Source of the DNA: Nocardioides sp. AX2bis
GTDB taxonomy: Bacteria > Actinomycetota > Actinomycetes > Propionibacteriales > Nocardioidaceae
Length of the DNA: 64,000 nucleotides
Assembly (NCBI RefSeq): GCF_902506435.1
Contig: NZ_LR733215.1
Location: 1,013,841 to 1,077,840 of the forward strand
Reading direction: 5' to 3'
Shown: positions 8,940 through 48,676 of the stretch, piece after piece
Layout: each line of letters starts with the position of its first letter
How positions within the stretch are numbered: position 1 is the first letter of the stretch
Translations under genes and position numbers: made by a program
Notes under the pieces: generated by a model
Databases searched by the model: none
Told to the model about the DNA's origin: nothing
The model's input: only the letters and a program-made list of their open reading frames with translations

Positions 8940-10112
8940 GTGAGTAATGACTTTCCGCTGTACGCGCTGTCCGAGGAGCACCAGGCCATCCGGGAGGCCG
9001 TCCGGGCGATCTGCACCGACAAGGTCGCCCCCTGGGCCGCAGCGGTCGACGACGAGGCCCGCTACCCGCAGGAGGCGCACGACGCGCTGCAGGCCGCGGA
9101 CTTCCACGCCCCGCACGTCCCCGAGCAGTACGGCGGTGCCGGTGCGGACGCGCTGGCCACCTGCCTGGTGATCGAGGAGGTCGCCCGCGCCGACGTGTCG
9201 GCCTCCCTGATCCCGGCGGTCAACAAGCTCGGCTCGCTCCCGGTCCAGATCGGCGGGGGCGAGGCGATCAAGGAGAAGTACCTGACCCGGCTCGCGGCCG
9301 GCCAGGGCGGGTTCTCGTACTGCCTCTCCGAGCCCGACGCCGGCTCCGACGCGGCTGCGATGAAGACCCGTGCCGTGCGCGACGGCGACGACTGGGTGCT
9401 CGACGGCGTCAAGCGCTGGATCACCAACGCGGGCGTCTCGGAGTACTACACCGTGCTCGCGGTCACCGACCCCGAGAAGCGGACCCGCGGCATCACCGCC
9501 TTCGTCGTGGAGAAGTCCGACGAGGGGGTCAGCTTCGGCGCCCCGGAGAAGAAGCTCGGCATCAAGGGCTCCCCGACCCGCGAGGTCTACTTCGACCACG
9601 TCCGCATCCCCGGGGACCGGATCATCGGCGAGGAGGGCCAGGGCTTCGACCTCGCCATGCGCACCCTCGACCACACCCGCGTCACGATCGCTGCGCAGGC
9701 CGTCGGCGTCGCGCAGGGTGCGCTCGACTACGCCCTGGAGTACGCCAAGGAGCGCCAGCAGTTCGGGAAGTCGGTCGCGGAGTTCCAGGGCATGCAGTTC
9801 ATGCTCGCCGACATGGGCATGAAGGTGGAGGCCGCGCGCCAGATGACCTACGCCGCTGCCGGCCGGTCCGAGCGCAACGACGCCGACCTGACGTTCTTCG
9901 GCGCCGCGGCGAAGTGCTTCGCCTCCGACGTCGCGATGGAGGTCACCACCAACGCGGTGCAGGTGCTCGGCGGGTACGGCTTCACGCGCGACTACCCGGT
10001 CGAGCGGATGATGCGCGACGCGAAGATCACCCAGATCTACGAGGGCACCAACCAGGTGCAGCGGATCGTGATGGCACGTCAACTCCTTGCGGGGGTTCAG
10101 TCAGAGCTCTGA
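8940..10112 (+). CDS. Acyl-CoA dehydrogenase whose 3' end is the integration site of the island
   Basis: A 390-residue flavoprotein dehydrogenase of normal length. It oxidises acyl-CoA to enoyl-CoA in beta-oxidation or branched-chain catabolism. Motifs seen are CLSEPDAGSDAAAM and WITNAG around the FAD/substrate site, the QFGKSVAEFQGMQFMLADMG stretch and the C-terminal QIYEGTNQVQRIVMARQLL, which holds the usual catalytic Glu. The last 12 codons plus stop (10,077 onward) come from the integrated island: an orphan copy of the original end lies at 48,629-48,713. The encoded tail differs from the original only by Glu for Gln near the C-terminus, although most third bases differ. The gene therefore stays functional after integration. 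Confidence 0.94.
   Translation: MSNDFPLYALSEEHQAIREAVRAICTDKVAPWAAAVDDEARYPQEAHDALQAADFHAPHVPEQYGGAGADALATCLVIEEVARADVSASLIPAVNKLGSLPVQIGGGEAIKEKYLTRLAAGQGGFSYCLSEPDAGSDAAAMKTRAVRDGDDWVLDGVKRWITNAGVSEYYTVLAVTDPEKRTRGITAFVVEKSDEGVSFGAPEKKLGIKGSPTREVYFDHVRIPGDRIIGEEGQGFDLAMRTLDHTRVTIAAQAVGVAQGALDYALEYAKERQQFGKSVAEFQGMQFMLADMGMKVEAARQMTYAAAGRSERNDADLTFFGAAAKCFASDVAMEVTTNAVQVLGGYGFTRDYPVERMMRDAKITQIYEGTNQVQRIVMARQLLAGVQSEL
10028..10075 (+). repeat. Left attachment repeat (48-bp direct repeat)
   Basis: These 48 bases are identical to 48,629-48,676. The copy lies within the final coding part of the acyl-CoA dehydrogenase gene. It marks the junction between chromosome and island, so the crossover occurred somewhere inside it. 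Confidence 0.9.
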
Positions 10113-10721
10113 CCTGCGGTTTCCCCGCGTCCTGGCTCCGACGTCGGAGCCATTGTGCCGTAGAACTGATGCCGTGCAGTCGCCCTGGCACGGCATGAAT
10201 CGGCACACCCAGGAACCGATCGGAACGGTTTGTGTGTCGGCTGTGTGACACCAGCGGATGCTCGGCACGGCCTCGCGCTGCCTCGGTTGGGCGTGACGGC
10301 GAAGCGACGTCCCTCGAGAACCAGGCAGTACCGATCCCGCTTGGGAGATGAGCGAGATGCGCTGAACGCCAGCCACCGCGCATCACTGCCCCAGCCCTCT
10401 TCTCGGCTCACCTGAGAAGAGGGCTGGACTGTTCCATCGGTCGGATCGGCTGGACAGCTGAACTTGAGACCCCGCCAAGAAATGCGCGGTCCCTGCAACG
10501 TCCCAGGCGATCTCCCACAAATGCCCTAGTCGGCCCCCCGGGGCAAAGGAGGTCGGCCGGGCGTGAGCCAACCGCGTCGAGGTTTGCGTGGCCGGTGGTG
10601 TCGGTTCCCGCACCTACACTCGCGGCCGTCGGGCTCACGGCCCGGTCCACTAGGTGGCCGCGGGCCTGTCCGAGACCGGCAAGGTCGGGAGCCGAGATAC
10701 GCAACGACGTTGGGAGCAACG
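10113..10721. other. Non-coding left end of the island
   Basis: About 600 bases between the restored gene tail and the ATPase gene show no convincing reading frame. They hold the short palindrome at 10,138-10,151, the strong hairpin at 10,391-10,427, and a ten-base motif (10,109-10,118) that recurs inverted near the right end. Integrase or excisionase arm sites would be expected here. The final part must hold the promoter of the ATPase gene. Confidence 0.5.
10391..10427 (+). terminator. 14-bp perfect hairpin near the left island end
   Basis: Arms 10,391-10,404 and 10,414-10,427 are exact complements around a nine-base loop. No U-tract follows. It may replace the terminator that the dehydrogenase gene lost to the far side of the island, or insulate the ATPase gene from read-through. 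Confidence 0.55.
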
Positions 10722-13700
10722 GTGCCTGAAACAACACCCCAGGACGGGGACGGTGCCGACGCGGTCGCGTCCGACCAGGACCGCGTGACCGGAAGCCTCG
10801 GGGTAGACGCCGCCCCAGGAAGCGTCACGTCGCCGCAGGTGCCCGCGGTGGTCGCACGGACGGGGGCGGCGGTGGAGCTTTCGTCGTTGGCACCCGAGTT
10901 CAGTGAGGCGCAGCACCAGTCCTACCTGGACCGTCTGACCGCTGCTCTGGGTGACGACCGCAACCGCAACATCGCGCTCACCGGCCGCTACGGGGCGGGC
11001 AAGTCCAGCATCCTGGGCAAGTACGTCGACGAGCATGGGGACACCACGCTGAGGCTGGCGATCTCCTCGCTCGGCCCTAACGACGAGGGCGCGTCGCTGA
11101 CAAACCGGATCCAGAAAGAGGTCGTCAAGCAGCTGATCTACAGCGCCGAGCCGCGCACGCTCGAGCGCTCGCAGTTCCGAAGGCCGGTCGAGCTGCCGTG
11201 GCCGAGGGCGGCGTTGCAGGCGGCGGCGGTGCTGGTCCCGCTGGCCGTGTTGCTGGTGCTGATGGGCTGGTTGCCGGCACCTGCGGTCGCGGCGTCGGAT
11301 GGCCCGCTCGCACAGGTCCTCGTTTGGCTCGTGCTGGCCGGCATCGTGCTGGCTGCAGGCACGGGCGTGCGGCTGCTGACCCATGAGAAGTTCTTCGTCT
11401 CGGACGTCGCGGCAGGTGGCGCGATGGTGAAGCTATCCGAGAAGAAGCTCACCTACTTCGACGAGTACCTCGACCTCATCGTGAACTACTTCGACTCTGA
11501 GGACATCGACGTGGTCATCTTCGAGGACCTCGACCGGTTTGACGACCCGCAGATCTTCGAGGCGCTGCGCGAGCTGAACACACTGCTGAACGGCCCCAAG
11601 CGGGGCAAGGCCCGGTCCTGGCGGCCGTTGCGGTTCGTGTACGCGGTGCGCGACAGCCTGTTCGAGCAGATCGGCGCCGAGCAGGACGATGCCGTGTCGG
11701 GCGACGGCAGTACAGGCGCCGCGGCCGGGGGTATCCCGGCCACCCCGGCCACCCCGGCCACCCCGGCCACCCCGGCCGGCTTGGGTGCGCGGGCGGCCGA
11801 TGACGCGGCGAAGGCTGAGACATCGCGTGCGAACCGCACCAAGTTCTTTGAGGTCGTCATCCCCGTTGTCCCGTTCATCTCGCACCGCAACGCCCGCGAC
11901 CTGCTGAAGGGCCTGCTCGAGGGTGCCGGCGTGGTTGTGGAGCGTCGCTTGATCGACCTCGTCGCTCGCCACTGCACCGACATGCGACTGCTGCGCAACA
12001 TGGTCAACGAGTACCTAGTGTTCGCTGAGCGGCTTCTTCACGGCGAGAAGCAGGCGCCGGAGCTGGACGCATCGAAACTGTTCGCGCTCGTGGCTTACAA
12101 GAACTTCCACATGGACGACTTTGAGAACATCGCGCGACGCACCAGCGCCCTGGACGTCCTCTACGACGACCGCCGCGGCATCATCCGGCTCGGCGTGGAA
12201 CGGCTCGAGGCCGAGAAGCGCGAGGTGCTCAAGGCCGGGGCGCGACCGGCGTCTGTGAAGCCGTTCATCCGCGAGATGACAAGGCGACTGAACGCAGTGG
12301 CGACCATGCTGCTCGAACAGAAGGGGTACTCCGACAGCGTGTTGTTCTACCGGGTCGGCGACAAGGACTACCCGACGTCCGCGGCAGCATCGGCTGCGTT
12401 CTGGGATCACGCGCTCGACACCGCTTCCATCACCTTCATGGCGCGACGGTCCGCGTACGGGGATGCGTCGTTCGGTTCACTGACGCAGGACCAGCTCGAG
12501 AAGCTCTACCCGGAACTACTTGAGGGGCGGTGGGTCGAGCGGAACGAGAAGGCTGCCCGCGCCAAGGCGGCGAAGCTCGACGCCAAGATCGCCGCCCTGC
12601 GAGGAGCCGACTTCCGTCGCCTCATCGAGGCCTCGGACAACTACACGATGCCGGAGCGCCTGGCTGGCGCCGGTGGCCCCGGCACCGTCGCGTGGGAGGC
12701 CGCCGTCGCCGCGGGCACCGCAACCGACACGCAACCCGGGACAGTGACGATGGCGGACCGCGTGCACGAGCTACTCGGTTCAGAGCTCGCGCGGGACTTG
12801 GTCCGCGGCGGGCACATCGACCTGAACTACAGCGTTTACGCCGCGCAGTTTTACGGCAACTTCGCGGGCGTTGACGTCCACACGTTCCTCATCCAGACCG
12901 AACAGACCAACAGCTCCGACATCGACTACAAGTTTCACAGCACCAACGCCGTCAAGAATCTTCTCGCCGAAGCCAGCGCCGACTTCACCAGTTCGGTCAG
13001 CGCGTTCAACACCGACGTCCTCGACTGGCTGTTGAAACACGACCAGCGCGGTGCCACCGACGTGGTCTGGCACGTGATGCAGACCAATGGCGCCAGCGAG
13101 GTAGCGCGGCGGTTCATGGCCACCTACCTGACCTCGGGGCAAGCGCGCACCGAGTTCGTAGCCCGTCTCGCGCATGAGGAGTGGCAACCGGTCTTCACCC
13201 ACCTGTGCACCAGCGCCGACGTTCCCGACGACGTGCGCGCCGACCTCGTTGACGCGGCCCTGCGTGCTACCACCGCGAACGCCATCAGCGCCTTCGACAC
13301 CCCTACCGACGTCGCGGGCTTCGTGCTCGGCCACTACCAGCAGATGCCGGCCTACACCGACCCCCAGGACGCCACGGTCGCGGGCGCCGCCGTCGCGCTG
13401 CTCAAGCGGGCCGACGTGCGCTTGCCGGACCTGGCCGGGCTCGACGACGACATGCTCGACCGCGTTGTGCAAGCAGACCTGTACGAGCTCAGCGCCGACA
13501 ACCTGCGCCTCGCTGCACGCATCGACGGCGCCGTGAACCTCGATCGACTCCGCGACGCGGCACCGGACACCGTCTACGGCTACTGCCTGCGCAACCTCGA
13601 GCAGTACGTGGACGAAGTGGGCGGCGACGTCAGCACCAAGGCCGCCGTCGCTGACGAATCGACGCTCGCCCACGTGTTGAACACCGACGCAGGCGCCGAG

Positions 13701-14702
13701 TGGTCGTCTGCGCAGCAGGAGGCTCTCTTTGCTGGCGCCATGAAGACGGCCGCCCTGAGCGACATCCAGGCGGTACCCCCGGCTACATGGGAGGCACTGG
13801 CCGAAGCTCGGCTGTTCCTGGCCACCGCGAGCAATGTCGAGGCCTACCTGCACCAGATCGGCAGCATCGACACCTGCCTCGGTGAGCTGCTGACCGCTGC
13901 CGGTGCCATCACCGTCGACGCTCCCGACTCGGACTCCGCCACCGAGGCGGACGGGGGTGCGGAGGGGCGGACTCCTCCGGACGTTCGCAAGATCGCGGTC
14001 GCCGTGCTGAACGCCCGCGAAGCCATCGAGTCCACCGAGACGCGGGTCCAGCTCGCCAAGAGCCTGGGCCTGGGCACCCAGCTCGCCGCGACCGAGGTCG
14101 CCGCGGAGAACAGCGACCTGTTCGCCCGCCTCCTGCGTGCGGATCTGGTAGCCGATGACGCCGACACGTTCACACATCTCGCGACCGGCGGCTGGGGAGC
14201 GGTCAGGAACGGCATCGCGGCCTCCGCACACGTCGCGACGTTCCTGACACCAGCCCACATCGCCGGCATCGCCGGCGATGTGCTCGAAGACCGGGACACG
14301 GCCGACAAGGTCGGGCACCGCATCCTGGGCGACCTGGACTCGTACGTCCCCGACCCGGATGACTACGCCTGGACGCAGGTCGCTCAGTATGCGTCGCGGA
14401 CCCGAACCACCTTGTCGTGGGCGCACCTGAAGCAGGTCGCCGCGAACAGCACGGGGCCGGCGAGGCAGACGATGCAGCTCATCCAGCTCGCCGACCCGCA
14501 GCCGCAGCACGTGCAGGACGTTCTCGCTGTCCTGTCGCATCTCGAGGAGCCGTGGTGCTACCCGTCGACGCAGGAAGTTACGCAGTTCGACGCACCCGAT
14601 GACGGGCCGGCCATCGCTGTGCTCCAGTTCCTGGCGTCGCAGGCCGTGCTCAAGGTCAACAGGCCGAAGCGCAACGGGAAGCGTGCCGTCACCCTCCGGT
14701 AG
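10722..14702 (+). CDS. Giant KAP/YobI-type P-loop ATPase with membrane insert
   Basis: A 1,326-residue protein starting at GTG 10,722, which follows a good GGGAG site five bases upstream. It has a Walker A motif GRYGAGKSS near residue 88 and Walker B VVIFEDLDRFDD near residue 265. Between them are two hydrophobic helices, near residues 164-185 and 193-218. Membrane helices inserted between Walker A and B are the hallmark of KAP-type NTPases, and the sequence reads like the YobI P-loop family. The remaining ~900 residues are mostly helical and repetitive and have no known catalytic motif. A PAT repeat lies near residues 339-352. Such ATPases are often plasmid- or island-borne and some act in phage defence, but no role is proven here. 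It is convergent with the recombinase-like gene. Confidence 0.8.
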   Translation: MPETTPQDGDGADAVASDQDRVTGSLGVDAAPGSVTSPQVPAVVARTGAAVELSSLAPEFSEAQHQSYLDRLTAALGDDRNRNIALTGRYGAGKSSILGKYVDEHGDTTLRLAISSLGPNDEGASLTNRIQKEVVKQLIYSAEPRTLERSQFRRPVELPWPRAALQAAAVLVPLAVLLVLMGWLPAPAVAASDGPLAQVLVWLVLAGIVLAAGTGVRLLTHEKFFVSDVAAGGAMVKLSEKKLTYFDEYLDLIVNYFDSEDIDVVIFEDLDRFDDPQIFEALRELNTLLNGPKRGKARSWRPLRFVYAVRDSLFEQIGAEQDDAVSGDGSTGAAAGGIPATPATPATPATPAGLGARAADDAAKAETSRANRTKFFEVVIPVVPFISHRNARDLLKGLLEGAGVVVERRLIDLVARHCTDMRLLRNMVNEYLVFAERLLHGEKQAPELDASKLFALVAYKNFHMDDFENIARRTSALDVLYDDRRGIIRLGVERLEAEKREVLKAGARPASVKPFIREMTRRLNAVATMLLEQKGYSDSVLFYRVGDKDYPTSAAASAAFWDHALDTASITFMARRSAYGDASFGSLTQDQLEKLYPELLEGRWVERNEKAARAKAAKLDAKIAALRGADFRRLIEASDNYTMPERLAGAGGPGTVAWEAAVAAGTATDTQPGTVTMADRVHELLGSELARDLVRGGHIDLNYSVYAAQFYGNFAGVDVHTFLIQTEQTNSSDIDYKFHSTNAVKNLLAEASADFTSSVSAFNTDVLDWLLKHDQRGATDVVWHVMQTNGASEVARRFMATYLTSGQARTEFVARLAHEEWQPVFTHLCTSADVPDDVRADLVDAALRATTANAISAFDTPTDVAGFVLGHYQQMPAYTDPQDATVAGAAVALLKRADVRLPDLAGLDDDMLDRVVQADLYELSADNLRLAARIDGAVNLDRLRDAAPDTVYGYCLRNLEQYVDEVGGDVSTKAAVADESTLAHVLNTDAGAEWSSAQQEALFAGAMKTAALSDIQAVPPATWEALAEARLFLATASNVEAYLHQIGSIDTCLGELLTAAGAITVDAPDSDSATEADGGAEGRTPPDVRKIAVAVLNAREAIESTETRVQLAKSLGLGTQLAATEVAAENSDLFARLLRADLVADDADTFTHLATGGWGAVRNGIAASAHVATFLTPAHIAGIAGDVLEDRDTADKVGHRILGDLDSYVPDPDDYAWTQVAQYASRTRTTLSWAHLKQVAANSTGPARQTMQLIQLADPQPQHVQDVLAVLSHLEEPWCYPSTQEVTQFDAPDDGPAIAVLQFLASQAVLKVNRPKRNGKRAVTLR
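11736..11777 (+). repeat. 9-bp tandem repeat encoding Pro-Ala-Thr
   Basis: About 4.7 copies of CCGGCCACC inside the ATPase gene encode PATPATPATPATPA. It is a likely flexible linker after the Walker B region and prone to copy-number slippage; the 9-bp unit keeps the frame. Confidence 0.9.
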
Positions 14703-15337: not shown

Positions 15338-15346
15338 TCAGGCAGG
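15304..15346. repeat. Three direct copies of GTCAGGCAGG
   Basis: Copies start at 15,304, 15,320 and 15,337, spaced 16-17 bases, separated by CCAGTG-type spacers. The last copy contains the stop codon of the recombinase-like gene. This could be a protein-binding iteron set or simple slippage. Confidence 0.6.
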
Positions 15347-18300
15347 TCTCGAGGTAGGGACGGTCTGGGCTTCTGTGCGCAGGCTGCCTCCGGGCCCGCG
15401 GTTGGTCCAGGACTCTAGGTAGGTGGTGGGGAACTGGGTGCGAGGCCACGCTTCGTGTGTAGCCGGCGTGCGTCGGCAGTGGATGCAGACGACGCCGTAC
15501 CCGCTGGCCGCGACCTCGGGGAGCAGCACGACGTGGCTGGCGAAGCGGCGACCCTTGCAGCGACCGTGGGGGCAGCCGATGGCCTTCACGTGCGTCTTGG
15601 CCTTGTTGGCGTAGGCCAGGTAGCAGGGGCGCGTGAAGCCGCCGGACCGCTTCTGCGGCTTGACCAGTTCCCGGACCTCGGCCTCGGACCTACCGAGTGC
15701 AAGCGCGACATCGAGGACCGGGAGGCCGTGCTTCCGCGTCTCAGTGTCGACGGCGAGCAATCGGAGAGCCTCCGCGATCCAGGTCGTGTCGTCGGGCACC
15801 GCCGAGTCGCCCCAGGCCAGGTCCGGGTCCTCGTAGGTAGCCCGAAGCCGGTCGAGGTAGGCGCTGCTCGTGGTGGCCGTGGTTGCGCCGGGATCGCGCG
15901 TCAGCCATCTGTGGAGCTCCTGGCGCACGGCTGGCACCGGGTGGTCGACGAGCGCGCACTTCGCGCCGCGTGCGGTCACGCCCTCGCTCACCAGCCACGG
16001 CATGACGCGCTTGATCAGGAGCGTCTTGCGAGTCACCTGGAGCAGGTCCGCGACCTCGGTCAGGTCGCGGCCCTCCTCGAACACGTACCGCACCACCGTC
16101 TCGGCGTTGGCGAGGGTCTTGCCCGTGCGGGTCCGGACGTTCCGGATGGTGCCGGCCAGCGGCAGCCGCGCATGCCCGCCGGAGCTGAGCGGGAGCAACG
16201 CGGCGCAGGTCCACGCCAGATCCTCGCCATCCGGGCGGAGGCGCCAATCGGTGAACGTCTCGTCACACAGCCGTCCCAGGCGGGCAGGCGCCTCGCCGTT
16301 GCGCCGCGCCGATCCCTCGAGGCCGGCGACAAGGTACGCCGCCACCGAGACGTCTGCTTGGTCGTCGTGGGCGGTCGAGGCTCGCTGCTGGTCCCGATGC
16401 GCTTGCACCTTGGCCGCGATCCGGGCGATCTCGGCTTCGACATCTCGCACCCGGGTTCGGACCTCCGATGCCTGCGCGGCGTACGCCTTGGCCTCGTCAT
16501 CGTCGCCTGCGCCGGCGGCAAGGGCAGCCATGGTTCGGTGCCCTTTGGCCTCGGCCTCGAGCTGGGTGAGCTCGGTGCGCTTGAGGTCGATCCTGTGCTC
16601 CCAGGTGGCCGTCTGGTCGTACGTCTGCTCCTCGGCCGGGAGTTCGGTGAGCGTCGAGATGGAACCGAGATCCGCGAGGCTCCGCACGGCCCTGTCGAGA
16701 TGGGTTGCGACCGATGCTGCCAACTCGGCCAACGACCCCGTCGCCGCGATGTGGGCAGGCTTCGACTCGCCCGGCCCGAAGTAGCTCCACCCCCGGCCTG
16801 TCCTAGGGCCAGCCCCGGCGGACTCGCGGCGGAACAGGAGAATGAAGTTGGCCCGCCCAGAGAGGTTGTTGCGCGCCTCGACCCCCCACTGCGTCGGCTC
16901 GTCGTCGTACTTGGAGCCAGCCTCTGCAGGCTGAACGGTCCAGTTCGTGAAGCCTCGAAGGACCCTGCGGGTGCTGGTTCGGTGCGCCTGACCGCCGGTG
17001 GCCGCCTTGGGCGCGCGGAGCTCGCCGAGCAGCCGGGCGGCCACCTTGCGGCAGGTGTCGTCAGAAAGGCCGAACCGCGGGACCTCCCGCCCAGCATCGT
17101 CGGTCGGCCATGCCCAAGGCGCGGAGAGGATGTCGAACCAGCCGTACTCGTCGCGGTCGTCGCGGTAGGTGGCGGGGATACCGTCCAGCACGATGTTCCG
17201 GCCTCTGATGTCGTTGCGCAGGCGACGGAAGTAGCGGCCTGTGCGCAGCAGCTCCACCTTGGCGATGTAGAGCCGCGTGTCGGCGTCGAAGACGTCTGCG
17301 GGGTCCTCGCCGGCCAGGTAGCGGGCGATGTCCTGCTCGGACGGCGCGATACGGGGCCGGAAGCTGCTGCGGACGAAGAAGCTCTTGGCCGCGTCGTAGC
17401 GGGCTAGCGGGTCGTCGACGGTCTGGGCGTAGGTGTTGTCGAGGTTGGTGTGGTCCCGTCGCCTCAGCCGGCCGTCGGCCTCAAAGGCCACCATGCGCTC
17501 CGCGATGACCTGGTAGCTCTCGCCGGCGGCACCGGCGTCGTAGAGCGCCCCGAAAACGGGGATCATCGCCGGGTTGGCCTCGGGGATCAAGCCCCGGTCG
17601 CCTTCGTTTACCGGCCGGCCGTGCCTGTCCTTCTTTTGGTGCCAGCCATGCGGCATCTGCATCTCCGAGATGGCCGCACCGCCAAGCTTGCACTTCATGA
17701 GGCGCTTGCCGGTGAGCTTGCGGCGGCGGTTGGGGTCGTCGTTGCCGCCGACCAGGCCGAGGGCGCCGAGCGCGAGCTCGTCGCCCGGATTGCGCTGGTC
17801 GTAGCGCTGGCCGCCGAACACCAGTGCGATGTCGCGGTGCTTGCACTTGGTGGTGATCTGGGTCCAGTCGGCCTTATCGCGGCCGGCCCGGGTCACGTCG
17901 TCGGCCCAGCACATCTCGCGAAGCGAGGGGAAGTGGTTGAGGAGCGCCATGATCATGACGGTCACGCCGTTGAGGTCCTCGCCGTCCTGCCGAGAGATGT
18001 GCTTGAGCGTGGAGGACAGCGTGATGTTCAAGAAGACCACGCCGTCGACACAGACCACGGCCGCGATGGGGTCGGTTCCACGAGCCGTGTGGTGGAGGTC
18101 GGCCATGGTGATCCAGCTGATGCCGTACTTCGCGCCGACTTCCGGCGAGGAAGGGTCCCAGGCATCGTCAGGGAAAGCGCTGATCTTGGCGATGGCCGGG
18201 TTGTCGCCGTAGATGCTGAAGTGCGCCGCTCGCTGCGCGGCGATGCCGCCGGCGTCGCCGATGACGGAGAAGCGCACCGCGTGTCCGCTCAGGGGGCTTC

Positions 18301-37545: not shown

Positions 37546-37608
37546 CGTGTTCCCGGTACGACAAGGTTGGACCTGCCCAGCCACATCGCTTGAGGAGACA
37601 CCATCGCC

Positions 37609-38847: not shown

Positions 38848-39695
38848 CGAGTCGGGGGGCGGGCGGGGCCGCGCCCGGGATCGTGGCCATCACCGTGGTC
38901 GCGGGGACCGGCATGGCTGCGGTGGTGGCGACCTCGGTCGGGTTGATGCCGTTGTACGGCGAGCCCGCGCCGAGCCTCGACGGCTGGCGGTCGGCCGCGC
39001 CCGACCTGGTGGCCGGGATCGGGGAGTCGCTGCTGATCGCCGTGCCGGCGACGGTCCTCGCGGCCCTGGTCGGCTTCCTCCTGGCGACGCTGATGCTTGG
39101 AGGCGGCCGGGCGGCGGCCGTCCTACGCCTGGCGTGCCTCGCGGTGCTCGCGGTCCCGCACCTGGTGGGAGCGACCTCGGTGTCGCTGCTCCTGGGCGAC
39201 GGGGGAGTGGGTGCCCGCCTCGCCGCGCGGGCGGGCGGCGACGGCTGGCCGGCGCTCGTCGGCGGGTCGTGGCCGGTCGCGACCGTCCTCGAGCTTGCGT
39301 GGAAGGAGTCGGCGTTCGTCGCCCTCGTAGTCCTGGCCGCGGTCGCACCGGGTCACCGGATGCGCATGCAGGTCGCGGCAGGCCTGGGAGCCCGTCCTGT
39401 CCAGCGGCTCGTCCGGGTGCTGCTGCCCACGGCCGCGCCCGCGGTCGGCGCCGCCTCCCTGGTCACGCTCGTCTACGCCATCGGGTCTTACGAGGTGGCC
39501 TGGCTGCTCGGACGGGCGGTTCCAGAACCCCTACCAGTGCTGGCCTTCCGGCTCTTCGGCTCCATCGAGCTGACCGATCGTCCGGCCGCCGCGGCCGCCG
39601 CGGTGACCGGCTCCGTCCTCGCCCTCTGCGTCGCCGTCCCGGCGCTCGCGGCGCTCCCGCGCCTGCGGGCGCTCTCGTCGGGTGGTGCGCCGTGA
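38844..39695 (+). CDS. ABC permease, first half-equivalent of YnjC
   Basis: A 283-residue inner-membrane permease with six or so helices and the cytoplasmic EAA-like loop GLGARPVQRLVRVLLPTAAPA that contacts the ATPase. E. coli YnjC is one polypeptide with two such halves; here the halves are separate genes. It is coupled upstream and downstream by four-base overlaps. Confidence 0.85.
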   Translation: MTSRGAGGAAPGIVAITVVAGTGMAAVVATSVGLMPLYGEPAPSLDGWRSAAPDLVAGIGESLLIAVPATVLAALVGFLLATLMLGGGRAAAVLRLACLAVLAVPHLVGATSVSLLLGDGGVGARLAARAGGDGWPALVGGSWPVATVLELAWKESAFVALVVLAAVAPGHRMRMQVAAGLGARPVQRLVRVLLPTAAPAVGAASLVTLVYAIGSYEVAWLLGRAVPEPLPVLAFRLFGSIELTDRPAAAAAAVTGSVLALCVAVPALAALPRLRALSSGGAP

Positions 39696-40516
39696 GACGG
39701 GTCCTGCCGGTGGCCGGTCTGGTGCTGGCGCTGCTCTGGCTGGTCGTGCCGCTGGCGCCGGTCCTGGTGTGGGCGGGAGCGGAGCGGTGGAGCTACCCCG
39801 ACCTGCTTCCCGGCGCCTGGGGCGTCACGGGCTGGCGCGACGCCGCTGCGGCCGGGCTGCCGTTCGCGCTGCTGCGTTCGCTCGCGTTGGGTCTCGCTGT
39901 TGCTGCCGTCGCGACACCGCTGGGGGTAATGACGGGGCGGGTGCTCGGCTGGCGGCTCACCGGGCGACCCCGGCTGGTGGTCGCCGCTCTGCTGGTGCCG
40001 CTGGTCCTGCCGCCCTTCGCCGTGGCCATGGGCCTCGACGTGGTGCTGATCCGCGTCGGCCTTCCCGAGCTGGTGTCGGTGGTGCTGCTCCTGTCGGTGG
40101 TGGCGATCCCCTACACGGCGTACACGAGCGCGACCGCGTTCGCGCGGACGTCGCCGGAGCTGGAGGCCCAGGCGCGAGCCCTGGGTGCGACCCCCCGCCA
40201 GGCCCGTCTGCGGGTGGTGCTGCCAGCCGTGCGGGGCAGCATCCTCGTGGCGGCGCTGCTGGCCTTCCTGGTCGGGTGGAGCGACTACGTCGTCACGCTG
40301 CTGGTGGGTGGCGGGCAACTCGTGACCGCGCCCGTCCTGCTGGGAGCCGCGGCGTCCGGCTCCGGGAACGACGCTGCGGTCGCCGCGATGGCGCTGGCCA
40401 CCCTCGTGCCACCCGTGGCTCTGGTGACCGTCGCCGCCCTGCGGGTCCGAAGCAGCGGTCGCACCGCGGCGGACCGTCTGCCCGAGTCCGTGCCCCCCGA
40501 GGAGAGGATGCGCTGA
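39692..40516 (+). CDS. ABC permease, second half-equivalent of YnjC
   Basis: A 274-residue permease (GTG start, GTGA overlap with the previous gene). The EAA loop is ELEAQARALGATPRQARLRVVLPAV. It should pair with the preceding permease to form the channel. Its stop overlaps the ATPase start (TGATG). Confidence 0.87.
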   Translation: MRRVLPVAGLVLALLWLVVPLAPVLVWAGAERWSYPDLLPGAWGVTGWRDAAAAGLPFALLRSLALGLAVAAVATPLGVMTGRVLGWRLTGRPRLVVAALLVPLVLPPFAVAMGLDVVLIRVGLPELVSVVLLLSVVAIPYTAYTSATAFARTSPELEAQARALGATPRQARLRVVLPAVRGSILVAALLAFLVGWSDYVVTLLVGGGQLVTAPVLLGAAASGSGNDAAVAAMALATLVPPVALVTVAALRVRSSGRTAADRLPESVPPEERMR

Positions 40517-41658
40517 TGAGCACCCTCGAGGTCCGCGGCCTGTGGCACCGTTATGCCGACGCGGACACCCCCGCCCTCCGGGGCGCATCCGTTGCGGTCG
40601 CGGACGGCGAGATGGTCTCCGTCGTCGGACCCTCGGGATCCGGCAAGAGCACCCTCCTGCGCGTCGCGGCCGGCCTGCTGCGCTCCACCTCCGGACAGGT
40701 GCTGGTGGACGGCCGCGACGTCGCCGACCAGCCCACCGAGCGGCGCGACCTCACGGTGATGTTCCAGCACCCGCTGCTCTTCGAGCACCTCGACGTAGCC
40801 GGCAACATCGCCTTCGCCCCCCGGCTTGCCGGTTCCGGACGTCGGGAGGCCCGCCGGTGTGCCCAGCGCTACCTGCGGCTGGTGCATCTCGAAGGACTGG
40901 ACTCGCGCGACGTCGCGTCGCTGTCCGGTGGCCAGCAGCAGCGGGTCGCGCTCGCCCGGGCGCTGGCGGCCGAGCGCGGTGCGTTACTTCTCGACGAGCC
41001 CTTCAGCTCTTTGGACCGCGAGCTCCGGGCGTCGATGCACGACCTGCTCGCAGAGGTCCGCGCGGCGCTGGCGCCGACCATCCTCATGGTCACCCACGAC
41101 CTCGACGAGGCGGCGCTCGCCGAGTCGACCGTCGTGCTCGTCGACGGGAGCGTCCACCAGCATGCGCCGATGGCCGAGGTCTACCAGCGGCCCGCGACGG
41201 TGGCTGTCGCCCGCCTGCTGGGCGGCTTCACCGAGGTCGCCGGCACGGTCCGCGACGGCGCACACCACTCAGCGTGGGGGCGGCTGCCCGTCGCGGCCGA
41301 GGCAGCGGGTGACGGTGCCGCGGTTCTCCTGGTACGCCGGGAGGCGCTGCGTATCGAGCCCGCCGATGGCGGCACCACCGGCACCGGGCTCGAGGCCCAC
41401 GTGGTGCGGCGCCGTCCCACCGGGACTCGCGTCGTCCTCTCCCTCATGGGCTCTGACGACTCACGCATGGAGGTCGAGCTCCCGATCGGCGAGGACGTCG
41501 GCCCGGGCACCCGAGTCCGAGTGCTGCCTCCAGACGGTCGGTCCTCGCTGTGGGCGGTGCGGGGCGTCACATCCGGCGGGAACGCCCAGGGCATCTCGTC
41601 GGGTTCCCACGACAGCCCGTACGTGGCGCGAACACCATTGAAGGAGACCCGGTCATGA
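40516..41658 (+). CDS. ynjD: ABC transporter ATP-binding protein (YnjD-like) with C-terminal regulatory extension
   Basis: A 380-residue ATPase. Walker A is GPSGSGKST, the signature is LSGGQQQRVALARAL, Walker B is LLLDEPFSSLD, and VTHDLDEA supplies the switch His. The ~150 residues after the ATPase core resemble the TOBE-type beta domain of POT/MOI-class ATPases (VLLVRREALRIEP). E. coli YnjD is shorter, so this extension is a difference. It powers the 37.6-40.5 kb importer. Confidence 0.92.
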   Translation: MSTLEVRGLWHRYADADTPALRGASVAVADGEMVSVVGPSGSGKSTLLRVAAGLLRSTSGQVLVDGRDVADQPTERRDLTVMFQHPLLFEHLDVAGNIAFAPRLAGSGRREARRCAQRYLRLVHLEGLDSRDVASLSGGQQQRVALARALAAERGALLLDEPFSSLDRELRASMHDLLAEVRAALAPTILMVTHDLDEAALAESTVVLVDGSVHQHAPMAEVYQRPATVAVARLLGGFTEVAGTVRDGAHHSAWGRLPVAAEAAGDGAAVLLVRREALRIEPADGGTTGTGLEAHVVRRRPTGTRVVLSLMGSDDSRMEVELPIGEDVGPGTRVRVLPPDGRSSLWAVRGVTSGGNAQGISSGSHDSPYVARTPLKETRS

Positions 41659-41710
41659 CGTCATCGTGGAGCGGCGAGAACGCCGTCAGGTTCGGCCCGG
41701 AGGCGTGCCA

Positions 41711-41965
41711 GTGAACGCGCCCTTGGTAGAGGTGTTCTGGCGGCCCGGTTGCCCCTTCTGCCTCAGGCTCCGTGTCGCACTGGCGCTGCGGGGCGTGCGG
41801 GCCACGTGGCGGAACGTGTGGGACGACCCTGAGGCCTCCGTGTTTGTGCGAACGCACAACCAGGGCAACGAGACCGTCCCGACGGTCCGGATCGGCGCCA
41901 CGGTGCTCACCAACCCGTCTGCTGGCGTCGTAGGCTCGCTCCTGCGCCGCTCCCCGGGCCGATGA
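41711..41965 (+). CDS. Glutaredoxin-like protein
   Basis: An 84-residue protein. GTG 41,711 follows GGAGG seven bases upstream. Active-site CPFC in VFWRPGCPFCLRLRVAL and the later ETVPTVRI with the cis-Pro (TVP) mark a glutaredoxin/mycoredoxin fold. It overlaps the next gene by four bases. In actinobacteria such proteins work with mycothiol (family knowledge). Confidence 0.88.
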   Translation: MNAPLVEVFWRPGCPFCLRLRVALALRGVRATWRNVWDDPEASVFVRTHNQGNETVPTVRIGATVLTNPSAGVVGSLLRRSPGR

Positions 41966-43215
41966 GGATCGAGGCGGAGCTTCAACGAAGGCAGGTTGCC
42001 TTCCTTGGCAGCAGCGGGTCTGACCTCGCCGGCACCCTCGACCTTCCGGCCGGTCCAGTCCGAGCAGTTGCCCTCTTTGCCCACTGCTTCACCTGCGACC
42101 GCACCTCGCGGGCAGCATCTCGCGTCGCCAGGGCCCTGACGAGGGCCGGCTACGCAGTCCTGCGCTTCGACTTCACGGGGCTCGGGGACTCCGACGGCTC
42201 CTTCGCCGAGACCACGTTCAGCACTAATCTCGAGGACCTCCGCGCCGCCGCTCGCTGGCTCGCCGACGAGCTCGAGCCTCCGCGGCTGCTCGTCGGCCAC
42301 TCGCTCGGAGGCGCAGCCGTCCTGGCCATCGCCGGGGAGCTGAAATCCGTCGGAGCAGTCGCGGTGATCGGTGCCCCGTCGACTCCGGCCCACCTCACCA
42401 GGCTCCTGTCAGGTGCGGAGCCTGCGCCCGACGGACACCTCGCCGTCACCATCGGCGCACGGAGCCTCCACATCAGCCCGGACCTGGTCCGCGACCTGTC
42501 GGCCCGACCCCAGCGCGAGCGCATCTCCGCGCTCGGCAGACCCCTCCTCGTCCTGCATTCGCCGCGGGACGCCGTCGTCGGCATCGGGGAGGCGCGCGCG
42601 ATCTTCGACACCGCACGGCACCCGAAGTCGTTCGTGACCCTGGACGACGCCGACCACCTGCTGCTGCGCGCCGAGGACGCCGACTACGCCGGATCCATGA
42701 TCGCGACGTGGGCCGGCCGGTACCTCCCGGTTCGGCCGGCGTCGCCGTCCACGGCCCCCGCAGCGCCCTCGGGCGTGGTAGTCGACGAGATCGATGACCT
42801 CGAGGGCTACGCCCACCGGGCCCGCGCGGGGCGCCACACCTGGCTCCTCGACGAGCCACTCGACGTCGGTGGTGCCGACACCGGTCCAGCTCCGTACGAC
42901 GTGTTGCTCTCCGCGCTCGGGGCATGCACGTCGATGACCATGCGGATGTATGCGCGGCGCAAGGGGTGGGATTACCGGCCATCACGGGTGACGCTTCGCC
43001 ACGGTCGCATCCACGCCTCCGACTGCGAGACCTGTGAGACCACCTCAGGACATGTCGACCGGGTGCACCGGCACATCGAGCTGGACCCCTCCCTGCCCGA
43101 GGATCAGCGTGCGGCACTCCTCTCGATCGCGGACCGCTGCCCTGTCCACCGCACCCTGCTGGGCGAGATCGACATCGTCACCACTCACGCATCCGACCAT
43201 GCCCTGACGCCATGA
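41962..43215 (+). CDS. Alpha/beta hydrolase fused to an OsmC/Ohr-like domain
   Basis: A 417-residue two-domain protein. Residues ~1-250 form an alpha/beta hydrolase: nucleophile elbow GHSLGGAA (Ser), acidic SPRDAVV and a late His in DDADHLLL. Residues ~275-410 are OsmC-like with DVGGADTGPAPYDVLLSALGACTSMTMRMYARRKGW, where the redox Cys is in LGACTS, and a second Cys in DRCPVHRTL. OsmC proteins reduce organic peroxides using two thiols. The natural fusion suggests a hydrolysed ester or thioester product is handed to the thiol domain, or simply joint regulation. Confidence 0.9.
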   Translation: MRIEAELQRRQVAFLGSSGSDLAGTLDLPAGPVRAVALFAHCFTCDRTSRAASRVARALTRAGYAVLRFDFTGLGDSDGSFAETTFSTNLEDLRAAARWLADELEPPRLLVGHSLGGAAVLAIAGELKSVGAVAVIGAPSTPAHLTRLLSGAEPAPDGHLAVTIGARSLHISPDLVRDLSARPQRERISALGRPLLVLHSPRDAVVGIGEARAIFDTARHPKSFVTLDDADHLLLRAEDADYAGSMIATWAGRYLPVRPASPSTAPAAPSGVVVDEIDDLEGYAHRARAGRHTWLLDEPLDVGGADTGPAPYDVLLSALGACTSMTMRMYARRKGWDYRPSRVTLRHGRIHASDCETCETTSGHVDRVHRHIELDPSLPEDQRAALLSIADRCPVHRTLLGEIDIVTTHASDHALTP

Positions 43216-43556
43216 CCATGCGCGCCGAGCTCGAAGGAACCGTCCTGGCGGAGGGCCAGGACACCGTCGCTCGCGGCGGCTTCCGCTACTTCGCCCCGCA
43301 GGACGTGGCGTTCCGGTACCTGCGACCGGTCTCCCTGCGTCCGTCCCTGCGCGGCACGTCCGCCCGCTTCGATGTCTGCATCGGCGGAACACGAGCCGTC
43401 GACGCGGCCTGGTGCATCGCCCGCCCACGATGGTGGTCGCAGCCGGTCCGCGGACGGGTGGCGTTCGCCCCACCGGTCGTCGTCCGTCGGGTCGACGACG
43501 CGCCGGGTCCGTCAATCCGCCCGACGCGGTCCCCCCAGTCAAGGAGATCCACATGA
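43212..43556 (+). CDS. DUF427-like protein, second copy
   Basis: A 114-residue protein that overlaps its neighbours by four bases at both ends. The core GGFRYFAPQDVAFRYLRPVSLR with VDAAWCIARPRWWSQPVRGRVAF follows the DUF427 pattern, but the C-terminal ~20 residues are Arg/Ser-rich. The paralogue at 29,431 is shorter and closer to the consensus. Function unknown. Confidence 0.75.
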   Translation: MTMRAELEGTVLAEGQDTVARGGFRYFAPQDVAFRYLRPVSLRPSLRGTSARFDVCIGGTRAVDAAWCIARPRWWSQPVRGRVAFAPPVVVRRVDDAPGPSIRPTRSPQSRRST

Positions 43557-44305
43557 TCCCCGCATCCGTCGTCACATTCATCGACGCGGAGGTGGCCGCC
43601 GCGACCACCTCGTACGACGACCTGCGTGTGGTCGTCCTCAACGGGACCCTCAAGCGCTCCCCCGAGCCGAGCCACACCGACGGGTTGCTGGCGGTCACCC
43701 GTCGGGTGCTGGAGGGCGTCGGCGCGCAGGTCGACGTCGTGCGGCTCGTCGATCACGTCGTTCCACCGGGGGTCCAGCCCGACATGCGTGAGCACGGGTG
43801 GGAGCGCGACGACTTCCCCGACCTCTACCGCTCGCTGGTGGAGCCGGCGGACATTGTCGTCCTCGCTTCCCCGATCTGGCTGGGGGACCAGTCCTCACTG
43901 ACCCGGCTGGCGATCGAGCGGCTCTACGGCTGGTCCGGCGAGATGAACAGCGCCGGCCAGTGGAGCTACTACGGCAAGGTCGGCGGGGTCGTCATCACGG
44001 GCAACGAGGACGGCGGAAAGCACTGCGCGGCCCAGATGCTCTACGCGCTGAGCCACATCGGTTTCACCATCCCGCCCCAGGTCGACGCCTACTGGAACGG
44101 CGAGGCCGGCCCCGGACCGTCCTACCTCGACGACGACCGAGGGGCGCGCAACCACTGGACCACGCGCAACGCGGTCTTCGCTGCCTGGAACATGCTCCAC
44201 ACGGCCCGCAGGCTCAAGGACGCCGGGGGAGTGCCCGCCCACGGCAACGTCACGACCAACTGGGACCTGTCCGACCCGGACCACCCGAACCCGGAGTACC
44301 GCTGA
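43553..44305 (+). CDS. NADPH-dependent FMN reductase-like flavodoxin-fold protein
   Basis: A 250-residue protein; ATG 43,553 follows AAGGAG. The flavodoxin-like fold shows VVVLNGTLKRSPEPSHTDGLL (FMN phosphate loop), ADIVVLASPIWLGDQSS and KVGGVVITGNEDGGKH. It probably reduces FMN or a quinone/azo-type acceptor with NAD(P)H. It is the last gene of the long importer-redox operon; the Crp/Fnr gene is convergent 16 bases downstream. Confidence 0.88.
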   Translation: MIPASVVTFIDAEVAAATTSYDDLRVVVLNGTLKRSPEPSHTDGLLAVTRRVLEGVGAQVDVVRLVDHVVPPGVQPDMREHGWERDDFPDLYRSLVEPADIVVLASPIWLGDQSSLTRLAIERLYGWSGEMNSAGQWSYYGKVGGVVITGNEDGGKHCAAQMLYALSHIGFTIPPQVDAYWNGEAGPGPSYLDDDRGARNHWTTRNAVFAAWNMLHTARRLKDAGGVPAHGNVTTNWDLSDPDHPNPEYR

Positions 44306-44320
44306 CGGACTGCGTCCTGC

Positions 44321-45028
44321 TCAGTAGCCGCCGAGCTCGCGCAGCCTGTCCTGATCGTGCACGGTGATCTTGCCGCGACCCAGCGAGATCAGTCCGAGGT
44401 CGGCGAGTTCGCCCAGGATCTTCGTCGTCGTCTCGCGCGACGTCGCCGCCAGCGCGGCGAGCTGTTCGTGGGTGAGCTTGACCTGGGCATCTCGTCCGAA
44501 GGTGCCGCTCGAGCCCTGGGCGAGCGCCAACAGCGCACCGGCAACGCGCTCGGGGACCGACTTGAAGACCGCGTCGGAGAGTCGCTGCTCCAGCTCGCCC
44601 AGGCGTCGTCCGAGCGTCTCGGAGATGCGCGTGGCGATCCGCGAGTCGCCCAGCAGGAGGCGGCGTACGTCGGCCTCGGACATGACGCACACGACGATGT
44701 CCTCGAGGGCTTCGGCGAAGCTGTCGTGCATCTGCTGTCCCACGATCACCATCTCGCCGAAAATGGTGCCAGGCGAGATGATGGCCGTGGTCAGCGCCCG
44801 CCCATCGGGGGAGACACGGAAGATCCGGATCCGACCCTGCTTGAGGATGAACAGGGCCTCGAGCGGTTGGTGGGGGGTGTAGACCAGCTCACCGGAGCCG
44901 TAGCGGCGCATCGGCGCCGCCTGGGACAGGGCGCCCATCTCCGCGTCGTCCAGGTCGCAGAAGATGTCGACTTCGGCCATGCACCAAAGCCGCTCTTGCT
45001 GGCGATCGGCGGCCCGCTCGATGTCCAC
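44321..45028 (-). CDS. Crp/Fnr-family transcription regulator
   Basis: A 235-residue regulator with an N-terminal cyclic-nucleotide-binding-like domain (YGSGELVYTPHQPLEALFILKQGRIRIF) and a C-terminal winged helix (LTHEQLAALAATSRETTTKILGELADLGLI). GTG 45,028 is preferred because AGAGGAAG lies just upstream; ATG 45,124 would add a Pro/Gly-rich tail. The four N-terminal Cys of Fnr are absent, so it does not hold an Fnr-type 4Fe-4S cluster; a nucleotide or other effector is likely. It is the natural regulator candidate for the adjacent redox module. Confidence 0.9.
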   Translation of the reverse strand: MDIERAADRQQERLWCMAEVDIFCDLDDAEMGALSQAAPMRRYGSGELVYTPHQPLEALFILKQGRIRIFRVSPDGRALTTAIISPGTIFGEMVIVGQQMHDSFAEALEDIVVCVMSEADVRRLLLGDSRIATRISETLGRRLGELEQRLSDAVFKSVPERVAGALLALAQGSSGTFGRDAQVKLTHEQLAALAATSRETTTKILGELADLGLISLGRGKITVHDQDRLRELGGY

Positions 45029-45223
45029 GTCTTCCTCTCTGCGGCCGGGGGACCACGGCCGGCCGCCTCCGGCGAGGTCCTCCGGTTGGGTGTCGTTCAC
45101 GCAGGCGCTTGTTTCCGGTCCCATGGTCTCAGCCTTGTCGAGGAGGGGTGGTCGTGAGGTCACGCTGGCGGGCCGGGTGGTGTTGGTGCGCCACCCGGCC
45201 CACGACGAGGTGCTGAGCGGGTC

Positions 45224-46814: not shown

Positions 46815-48134
46815 TCAAGCAACCTCGCCGGCCGCCGGAGAGGCCGAGGCGGCCTCGCGACCCATCACCTCCCAGGGAAGTGTCCGTGACATCTCGCGAG
46901 CGGCATCCCCCTCGCCGGCGATGGGGGACTGGTACCGGTCCGTCGTCGTAGTGGGCTTCCTGTGCCCCAGCTGTCCCTGCACGTAGGTCACGCTGAAGCC
47001 GAGGCCGCCGTGCTCCTTGGAGGCCAGGCTGTACGAAGCGTGAGCGTGCCTGAGCCAGTGGAGGGTCCACATCCACGGCGTGGAGTCCACATCTTCGTGA
47101 GGACCGTTGGTGCACTCCTGGTTGAAGAGAGTCTTGGCGTCCTGGTTGATGAGCCGGTTGACCCGGTCTGCCCAGCGCTTGACCTTGCGATCGGGCGGGA
47201 ACAGCCAGCCGGCTGCATCACCCTCGTGGGTCGCCGCCTGCGCGACGAGGCGGTGAAGGACCCACTCGTAGGCGGCCCACATCCGGACCGTGCGCCCCTT
47301 GCCGCCCTTGGGAGGCGCCACCGCGGGCCACGCCCGGTAGCGGTTCAGCTGCTGGACGACACGAATCTTTCCGGCGTTGAGGTCGATGTGCTCCACCCGG
47401 AGCCCGAGGCACTCCGTGAAGCGAAGACCGCTGGCGAACGCGAGAAGAATCAGCAGGAACCCGTACCCGGGCAGCAGTCTTTCCGCGACACCGGCGAACC
47501 GGTGGATCGTGGCGGGCGCCGGGCAGTGCTCGACACCGATCCGTTCCTGGTCCGCGGCGGCCGGTGCCTTCTTCGCGAGCTCCGCCACGATGCGGCCGCG
47601 GCGACGCGCGGAGACTCCGAACGCGTCGCGGTCGCCGAAGAAGTTGCGGTTCTCGGCGTAGGTGATGAGGGCGCCGAGCGTCCGCGCGACGGCACGCATC
47701 GTCTCCTTCGTGGCGCCCCCGAGCAGCATCCCCTCGAAGACCTGGGTCCAGTGTCCGACGGTGAGGTCGCCACAGGCAACGTCTGCCACAGCTTCGGGCA
47801 TGTGACAGTTCCAGTTCGACCGGTACTGGTCCGTGGTGCCCTGCGGGGTGTTCGAGGCGCCGAGGAAAGAGATGAAGCGCATGTAGGTGAAGCCGAAGGG
47901 CTCATGGCTCAGCGGTCCACGCGAACGGTGGCGGTCGATCTCGGCGTACTTCTCCGCGGCGAACGCCTCTGCCTCATCCCGGCTCTTGCAGCGCTGCTGC
48001 CTCCGTTTGTTGCCCCGACCCGGGACACCAGCGGGATACCACGAGACCCGGAAGTCGCTGGAGATTCGGACGGGGTCGTCGTCGCGACGGCGGGTGATGT
48101 TCTGCTCGGCGGCAGCGCGCCTGCGCTCAGACAC
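46815..48134 (-). CDS. int: Tyrosine recombinase/integrase of the island
   Basis: A 439-residue integrase. The N-terminal arm and core-binding parts precede a catalytic domain with Arg in FASGLRFTECLGLR, Lys in APPKGGKGR, His/Arg in LHWLRHAHAS, and His/Tyr in QLGHRKPTTTTDRYQ, so all catalytic residues are present. It lies ~500 bases from the right attachment repeat and overlaps the excisionase-like gene by eight bases. It is the enzyme expected to insert the island into the acyl-CoA dehydrogenase gene. Confidence 0.95.
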   Translation of the reverse strand: MSERRRAAAEQNITRRRDDDPVRISSDFRVSWYPAGVPGRGNKRRQQRCKSRDEAEAFAAEKYAEIDRHRSRGPLSHEPFGFTYMRFISFLGASNTPQGTTDQYRSNWNCHMPEAVADVACGDLTVGHWTQVFEGMLLGGATKETMRAVARTLGALITYAENRNFFGDRDAFGVSARRRGRIVAELAKKAPAAADQERIGVEHCPAPATIHRFAGVAERLLPGYGFLLILLAFASGLRFTECLGLRVEHIDLNAGKIRVVQQLNRYRAWPAVAPPKGGKGRTVRMWAAYEWVLHRLVAQAATHEGDAAGWLFPPDRKVKRWADRVNRLINQDAKTLFNQECTNGPHEDVDSTPWMWTLHWLRHAHASYSLASKEHGGLGFSVTYVQGQLGHRKPTTTTDRYQSPIAGEGDAAREMSRTLPWEVMGREAASASPAAGEVA

Positions 48135-48471
48135 TGTACTTACCCGCCTTGTGTGCGGACCTCTTCGCCTTCGCGGTGTCCTTGGTCTTCTCGGCCTCTT
48201 CGGACGGGCCCGCCTCCTCGGCGGACCCGATGGTGCGGGCGCGGGTGCCGGCTTTGCTCGCGGCGCTGATGAAGGCGTGGACGTCGTGGAGCATCCACAC
48301 CGGGAGGGAGTTCAGCCAGCAGGGCTCGGGCAGCTTGCCGCCATCGAGGAGGTTGTCGATGGTCCTCTCGCAGATGCCAAGCTCGAGGGCAAGGTCTCGC
48401 TTGCGCAGGACGCGGTCGGGGTAGTGCCGGACGCAGCAGGCCATCGAGGTCAAGGTGTTGTGGTCAGTCAT
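48127..48471 (-). CDS. xis: Excisionase-like helix-turn-helix protein
   Basis: A 114-residue protein directly upstream of and overlapping the integrase start. LRKRDLALELGICERTIDNLLDGGKLPEP is a MerR/excisionase-type winged helix, followed by a WLNSLPVWMLHDVHAFI segment and a charged Ala/Lys/Glu-rich tail. Position and size fit a recombination directionality factor or a regulator of int. Confidence 0.8.
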   Translation of the reverse strand: MTDHNTLTSMACCVRHYPDRVLRKRDLALELGICERTIDNLLDGGKLPEPCWLNSLPVWMLHDVHAFISAASKAGTRARTIGSAEEAGPSEEAEKTKDTAKAKRSAHKAGKYSV

Positions 48472-48628
48472 GTCCCTGACCCGTCCCGCGCGACCGGAAG
48501 CTGGGCAATCACTGCCAGCACCAGTCCGAACGAGTCGGCATGGTGAGGAACGCGCTATGTGACTCTGCGTGACAGGCCAATGGGGAAGTCGCAGGTCAGA
48601 AGGGGTGGGCCCCGGATGGGGCCAAGAC

Positions 48629-48676
48629 CACCCAGATCTACGAGGGCACCAACCAGGTGCAGCGGATCGTGATGGC
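48629..48676 (+). repeat. Right attachment repeat (48-bp direct repeat)
   Basis: Identical to 10,028-10,075. It marks the right boundary of the island and is followed by the chromosomal original of the dehydrogenase tail. Confidence 0.9.

Follow-up and report, generated by a model that had tools for sequence, protein, structure and literature searches.

A 38.6-kb genomic island in the 3' end of an acyl-CoA dehydrogenase gene of Nocardioides, and integrase-less elements at the same gene end

We found that a 38,601-bp segment of the window, by which we mean the whole 64-kb stretch of DNA that was analysed, is best explained as a genomic island inserted into the 3' end of an acyl-CoA dehydrogenase (ACAD) gene. 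The explanation as a whole, which includes recombination at a shared core sequence and the derivation of integrase-less elements at the same site, was given a probability of about 0.93. A first-pass annotation had reported a 48-bp exact direct repeat inside the dehydrogenase gene and again beside int and xis, where it runs into an orphan 3' end of the gene. This observation was confirmed, its coordinates and identity being reproduced, and its interpretation as an integrating island was supported. The features that define the two ends are as follows (G322 is a related locus with an uninterrupted gene, described below).

8940..10112, + strand: ACAD gene, 390 aa, Pfam PF02771/PF02770/PF00441
10028..10075, + strand: attL core, 48 bp identical to the attR core, over the codons of TQIYEGTNQVQRIVM
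10076..10112, + strand: island-supplied coding tail of ACAD, 37 bases, which completes the reading frame
48629..48676, + strand: attR core, 48 bp
48677..48713, + strand: orphan original ACAD tail of the host, identical to the final 39 nt of the gene in G322
48730..48780, + strand: strong inverted repeat, probably the displaced ACAD terminator; a near-identical one lies directly 3' of the gene in G322

The 48-bp repeat occurs twice in the whole 64-kb window, and the 93-nt stretches around the two cores (10020-10112 and 48621-48713) are 88% identical, with a start-to-start spacing of 38,601 bp. The right copy is an orphan ACAD 3' end and adjoins the genes for an excisionase-like protein and an integrase. 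Because the repeat is derived from the gene, it is not a chance repeat. The gene at 8940-10112 is intact, with N-terminal, middle and C-terminal Pfam domains and 8i4p as its closest solved chain. A crossover inside the core places the bases 3' of the core at the left end with the island, so that the 5' part of the gene through the core is host DNA and the final codons are the island's. Exact ends, target gene and integrase side, as first annotated, all hold on the evidence of the repeat, the Pfam domains and the empty site in G322.

Why would this gene end be a target? The core spans the codons of the ACAD motif YEGTNQ, whose glutamate we take, by analogy with medium-chain ACAD, to be the catalytic base. 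Such a role would account for a near-invariant target, and the ACAD 3' end may be targeted because the codons of this region scarcely vary. ARAGORN detected no tRNA gene in the 64-kb window. The first-pass annotation had called a metabolic coding gene a less common target than a tRNA gene; this holds better for actinobacterial conjugative elements, among which tRNA genes are described as the dominant targets (PMC3218068), than in general, since 43.4% of the mapped islands in a large survey are given as lying in coding sequences (PMC12424338).

In all, 82 loci of one genus were compared, namely the window and 81 other genomes. In one of them, G322, the window's right-flank genes stand directly behind ACAD at high identity to the window (96.6% and 96.2% for the CNNM genes and 87.7% for a 222-aa protein). 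In alignments with G322, the window's left flank (8800-10075) was 92.6% identical over 1277 bp and its right flank (starting at 48629) 91.3% identical over 3568 bp. Exactly 48 bp of the compared piece (1316-1363) belong to both alignments. The island interior had no match in the compared G322 DNA. These results bear out the prediction of the first-pass annotation that a relative would carry an uninterrupted dehydrogenase gene. Neither of the findings that it had named as grounds for rejection was borne out: instead of both repeat copies with no island between them, G322 has a single intact ACAD gene with no second tail within the 18.5 kb followed, and instead of an assembly join of two dehydrogenase genes, both window flanks adjoin in G322. 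G284 and G054 carry less similar CNNM genes a short way behind ACAD, their order unchanged, and in G195 and G214 such genes are 13-16 kb from it.

Could two ACAD copies have been joined by ordinary homologous recombination, or by the assembly, with a segment between them that is no mobile element? In favour of this, the repeat comes from the gene, and sequences similar to the ACAD 3' end occur elsewhere in the genome. However, the orphan copy is merely a 93-nt tail, the whole window comes from a single 3.96-Mb contig, and G322 is uninterrupted at the exact place, its flanks overlapping by precisely the core. Second tails also recur in 11 further loci (two of them doubtful), and the open reading frames (ORFs) of the window island had no match in the DNA fetched for four of these (G201, G297, G230 and G220). 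We therefore regard this alternative as extremely improbable and retain the reading of an inserted island.

The inverted repeat at 48730-48780 is a near-perfect 51-nt repeat that now lies 38 kb from the gene that it probably terminated. We also considered whether the island supplies a terminator behind ACAD, and rejected this: the first 65 nt from the stop codon are no more stable when folded than random sequence, with folding energies of -19.9 to -27.3 kcal/mol in 10 occupied loci, compared with a random median of -24.8 and a median of -29.3 at unoccupied loci. The alignment fold behind the ACAD stop had no convincing covariation (term 0.64).

Next to the right end of the island are the two genes expected to act on it and, on both sides of the core, pairs of short repeats.

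46815..48134, - strand: tyrosine integrase, 439 aa, PF00589 E 2e-12
48127..48471, - strand: excisionase-like protein, 114 aa, PHROG 66 excisionase E 5e-7, no Pfam match
10231..10249, + strand: putative left arm-type site, TGTGTGTC-N3-TGTGTGAC
48556..48573, + strand: putative right arm-type site, TATGTGAC-N2-TGCGTGAC

The integrase, with its catalytic R-K-H-R-H-Y, stands beside one island end (attR), and R238, K276, H359, R362, H391 and Y401 are kept in 22 of 22 aligned sequences, the window's own included. Its structure model was poor overall (mean pLDDT 43.5), with residues about 20-70 modelled at fair confidence as three strands and a helix, which we take to resemble known arm-binding domains. 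The most likely mode of insertion is a site-specific crossover in which a circular island recombined, through its copy of the core, with the core in the gene, and the island's own tyrosine integrase was the likely catalyst. The integrase would bind the octamers as arm-type sites, the excisionase-like protein may drive excision, and the island may be able to leave as a circle.

How widespread is this integrase? Protein searches returned 21 homologues at 68-82% identity, of which the nearest named one (82%) is from Nocardioides sp. Leaf285, which makes Nocardioides the likely genus, and one at 68% is named as a Pedococcus MAG. In whole genomes, the family was found in 4 of 215 genomes of the genus (E<=1e-50), in 5 of 294 of the bacterial family (E 1e-40) and in 3 of 342 of the order, all three within the same bacterial family. 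Scans of genome contigs and viral contigs for relatives confirmed none, and a further contig scan gave four loci with integrases at 25-30% identity, which were left out of the analysis. One match was obtained among phage records (31% over 38% of the query) and none among plasmid records.

The cargo of the window island begins with defence candidates and continues into a long redox and transport region.

10563..14702, + strand: YobI-like P-loop ATPase, 1379 aa, Tmn-like defence candidate (PF20693 E 3e-96; PADLOC Tmn E 9e-37)
15338..18475, - strand: 1045-aa protein, weak resolvase-domain match below cut-off, no PADLOC or PHROG match
18728..20053, + strand: DEDD exonuclease, PDC-S48-like defence candidate (PF00929 E 3e-23; PADLOC PDC-S48 E 1e-104)
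20123..21717, - strand: primase/helicase-like and ribbon-helix-helix-like proteins (weak PHROG matches; ribbon-helix-helix below cut-off)
27991..45163, strand unspecified: redox/transport cargo, first part (DsbD-like, AhpD-like, ECF sigma, MerA-like flavoprotein, SelD-N-like oxidoreductase)
27991..45163, strand unspecified: redox/transport cargo, second part (VTT/DedA, CDP-alcohol transferase, ABC importer, its ATPase ORF named by eye, glutaredoxin, hydrolase-OsmC, FMN reductase, Crp)

The two defence candidates, Tmn-like and PDC-S48-like, thus lie near attL. Could the island be a prophage with cargo, or one of the actinomycete integrative and conjugative elements (AICEs)? In favour are its tyrosine integrase, its excisionase-like gene and a weak primase/helicase-like match. 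Yet a Pfam search of 30 island ORFs found no FtsK/TraB translocase, relaxase, replication initiator or phage structural domain (several ORFs had no match to any family), PHROGs found no phage structural gene among 10 ORFs, and the target is not a tRNA gene. We consider either identity unlikely, and highly so, for the segment that we read as a genomic island.

To the right of the genes at 49690-53973, the window has lower GC at 54700-64000 and looks like a second island next to the 38.6-kb island. It contains one complete tyrosine integrase (55483-56691) and part of another, and two 300-nt stretches (55847-56146 and 62245-62544) share 90% identity.

The ACAD 3' end is an insertion hot spot. A DNA search matched the 93-nt tail in 204 of 215 genomes of the genus, and loci for comparison were taken mainly from few-contig genomes among the matches listed, together with the nearest relatives. 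Each of the 82 loci was followed 18-40 kb downstream of ACAD, and elements longer than the stretch fetched would be missed. A second ACAD tail was found within the fetched stretch at 10 loci, and the addition of G207 and G298 brought the count to 12 of 82, including two doubtful cases, G197 (a 45-bp repeat that starts abruptly) and G183, neither of which has an octamer pair; the short partial hits of G258 (20 bp) and G135 (31 bp) were left out of the count. When the window and three loci chosen because a tail pair or integrase had already been seen there (G260, G207 and G289) are set aside, the frequency is 8 of 78. The second tail of G207 lies about 89 kb away on the same contig (C33, 43.8-133.2 kb), and that of G298, on another contig, is presumed to pair with its ACAD gene.

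At 4 of the 12 loci, namely the window, G260, G207 and G298, the orphan tail has an integrase of this family next to it, in the same arrangement. The proposal of the first-pass annotation to look for other islands at the same gene proved fruitful. Between the tails of the other eight (G201, G297, G230, G220, G197, G183, G085 and G289), a profile search for PF00589 gave no match. In another genus of the family (g19), G142 has an orphan ACAD tail 5.7 kb from an integrase relative, and in G115, also of the family, no ACAD tail was found in the 20 kb around a related integrase. Near the right end of the G207 element are two integrases of the window integrase's family (at 44.5 and 59 kb), possibly of nested islands.

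Do these elements share recombination sites beyond the core? Tandem octamers one helical turn apart stand on both sides of the core in the window, a layout that suggests a resemblance to a lambda-type attP with arm-type sites. Related left ends follow the ACAD stop in six elements (the window, G201, G297, G230, G220 and G085), those of G220 and G085 being more distantly related than the other four. A sequence model built from the six recovered in 215 genomes its own six, as expected by construction, and one weak match (G067, E 6e-7), under strict filters that may miss weak matches. We then scored the octamers directly. A TGTGTGNC pair, 10-11 bp apart and no more than 260 bp after the stop, was present with at most one mismatch at 7 of the 82 loci, and every one of the seven has a second tail; random windows sampled from that DNA contained the pair in 4 of 3000 cases. 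The motif had been derived from the window, G201, G297 and G220 before scoring, which leaves G085, G289 and G260 as the independent cases, and these three sequences had been inspected before the final motif was fixed. A looser TGTGNGNC pair at +95 to +140, a form chosen after G207 had been seen, occurred at 8 of the 12 loci with a second tail, at none of the 70 without one and in 3 of 5000 random windows.

The left pair is perfect in G289, G085, G201 and G297, and it is absent at up to one mismatch in G230, G298, G183 and G197. The right pair has at most two mismatches in the window, G297, G220, G085, G289 and G207, a level that 61 of 5000 random windows equal, and at least three in G260, G201, G230, G183, G298 and G197. 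Furthermore, left and right octamers of three elements were scored in a motif-free manner: the window lay above all 200 shuffles and G297 was reached by 1 of 200, whereas G201 was reached by 102 of 200 and does not stand out.

The integrase-less elements are 4-14 kb long. Four of them (G230, G201, G297 and G220; 8.7-14.2 kb) carry cargo that resembles glycerol, thiol/sulfur, sulfatase/transport or glycosidase genes, mostly named by eye; a domain check of this cargo returned one FGGY kinase and one sulfatase. The G289 element (L135, 14539-18285) has 4.0 kb between its two ACAD tails, which hold the defence pair IetAS (IetA, E 1.6e-70; IetS, E 4.5e-84) and neither another long ORF nor a PF00589 integrase. 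Octamer pairs stand at both of its ends, the right one with 2 mismatches. In G085 (L123, 1-19901), a further left end, again with a perfect pair of octamers, comes after the second tail, so that two elements stand in tandem, and no PF00589 integrase was found in either. A possible decayed third tail (29 bp) lies about 11 kb further on in G085. G201 (L044) and G183 (L118) both have, by eye, an MMPL-type transporter and a DUF302-like gene between the tails, and their left ends differ, which is shared cargo in different elements at one site.

At the position expected for xis, near the right end, the G220 and G297 elements each have a coding stretch that is akin to the G260 excisionase-like protein (44-46%, E about 2e-9), and G201 has a 20-residue match to that of G220. 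These pieces point to an ancestor with int and xis. Since the sequence after the excisionase-related stretch differs between elements, int was probably lost more than once. The integrase-less elements are best read as derivatives that lost int and kept attL, attR and often the octamers, in the manner of cis-mobilizable elements (CIMEs), and they are possibly still movable by an integrase acting in trans.

Could they simply be dead, decayed islands, classical CIMEs that no longer move in trans? We consider this probable. Only excisionase-related pieces are retained in G297, G220 and G201, a search of the whole G201, G297, G230 and G220 genomes with the integrase profile gave no match at E<=1e-6, and the G289 cassette occurs in 1 of 215 genomes of the genus, G289 itself, with neither a second copy nor a second host seen. 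What decay alone explains less readily is the perfect left octamer pair in G289, G085, G201 and G297, the tandem in G085 in which each element has a perfect-octamer left end, and the reduction of the 4.0-kb G289 element to a two-gene defence pair. A further possibility, which we hold to be doubtful, is that Nocardioides-type bacteria have a system of cassettes that dock at the ACAD 3' end and depend on a helper, being moved in trans by rare integrase-bearing islands such as that of the window. If this were true, most cassettes would be 4-14 kb long and lack an integrase, with metabolic or defence cargo, one of them just IetA-IetS. Their movement would use the shared arm sites and the self-restoring coding tail, and the system would be a chromosomal counterpart of integrase-less cassette arrays. 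Helper-dependent arrays of that kind are described for integrons (PMC11389934).

What becomes of the enzyme when an island enters its gene? Over the 45 nt up to the stop, the island tail and the host tail of the window have 9 differences, with 8 codon changes synonymous and 1 non-synonymous (Q to E). Of the 126 possible single changes, 91 are non-synonymous, which gives a binomial p of about 2e-4 for at most 1 of 9. The ACAD reading frame is intact with either tail, and the frame of the target is restored after insertion. As judged from these sequences, ACAD receives a new, nearly equivalent tail from the island, and the island tail looks to be under selection to stay coding. Comparison with G297, in which the body of the ACAD gene is 86% identical to that of the window, separated the two kinds of tail: the island tails are 2 nt apart and the host tails 3 nt, and across roles the distance is 7-8 nt. 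In this pair, tail sequence follows the element and not the genome. Where no second tail is present (70 loci), the tail of the gene is closer to the host tail of the window in 61 cases and to its island tail in 6, with 3 ties. The nearly all-synonymous swap suggests that a mobile element can be selected to preserve the C-terminus of a host enzyme.

The element e14 integrates in icd and ICESt1 in fda, and SGI1 carries the tail of its target gene. SGI1 is described as integrating at the 3' end of trmE (PMC8409611), and many islands are said to reconstitute their target gene (PMC12884075). The window island has in common with SGI1, e14 and ICESt1 a tyrosine integrase and site-specific entry into the 3' end of a coding gene that is kept whole; it differs in its target, ACAD, with a core over the YEGTNQ codons. 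In the whole genomes searched, its integrase family has matches only in this bacterial family, although one protein hit is named as a Pedococcus MAG. Like the AICEs, it has a tyrosine integrase and an excisionase (here an excisionase-like protein) and lies in a gene 3' end. The vast majority of AICEs with tyrosine integrases, as that group is described, use tRNA genes, and AICEs carry replication and transfer genes (PMC3218068), in contrast to the non-tRNA target here and to the 30 ORFs in which Pfam found neither kind of gene.

ACAD genes have been hit before. The Mycobacterium abscessus prophage site attB-21 is located within FadE (PMC9934374), and phiC31 has a pseudo-attB inside one such gene (PMC7890619); both are described as serine-integrase events that disrupt the gene, whereas the window island has a tyrosine integrase and leaves the gene whole. 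In the open-licence literature, we found no description of a tyrosine integrase at the ACAD 3' end. Gene-restoring islands with tyrosine integrases are already known, and what appears to be new is the attB in ACAD. With its attB mapped precisely in a core metabolic gene, and with an integrase family and attP to match, the system is a candidate integration tool for this actinobacterial genus.

What is more unusual is the set of integrase-less elements that share this target. The ssrA islands of Dehalococcoides (PMC3146451) resemble them in that one 3' gene end receives many different cargo islands with direct repeats; there, the target is described as tmRNA and the enzyme as a CcrB-type serine recombinase, as opposed to a protein-coding target and a tyrosine integrase at ACAD. 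CIMEs, those described deriving from ICEs or IMEs (PMC5704250), are like the integrase-less relatives in that attL and attR are kept, no PF00589 lies between them and a tandem occurs (in G085). The relatives differ from described CIMEs in that conjugation genes were not seen. The TIGER resource is described as requiring an integrase gene (PMC12424338); the ACAD site exposes integrase-less islands that such integrase-based surveys skip by design.
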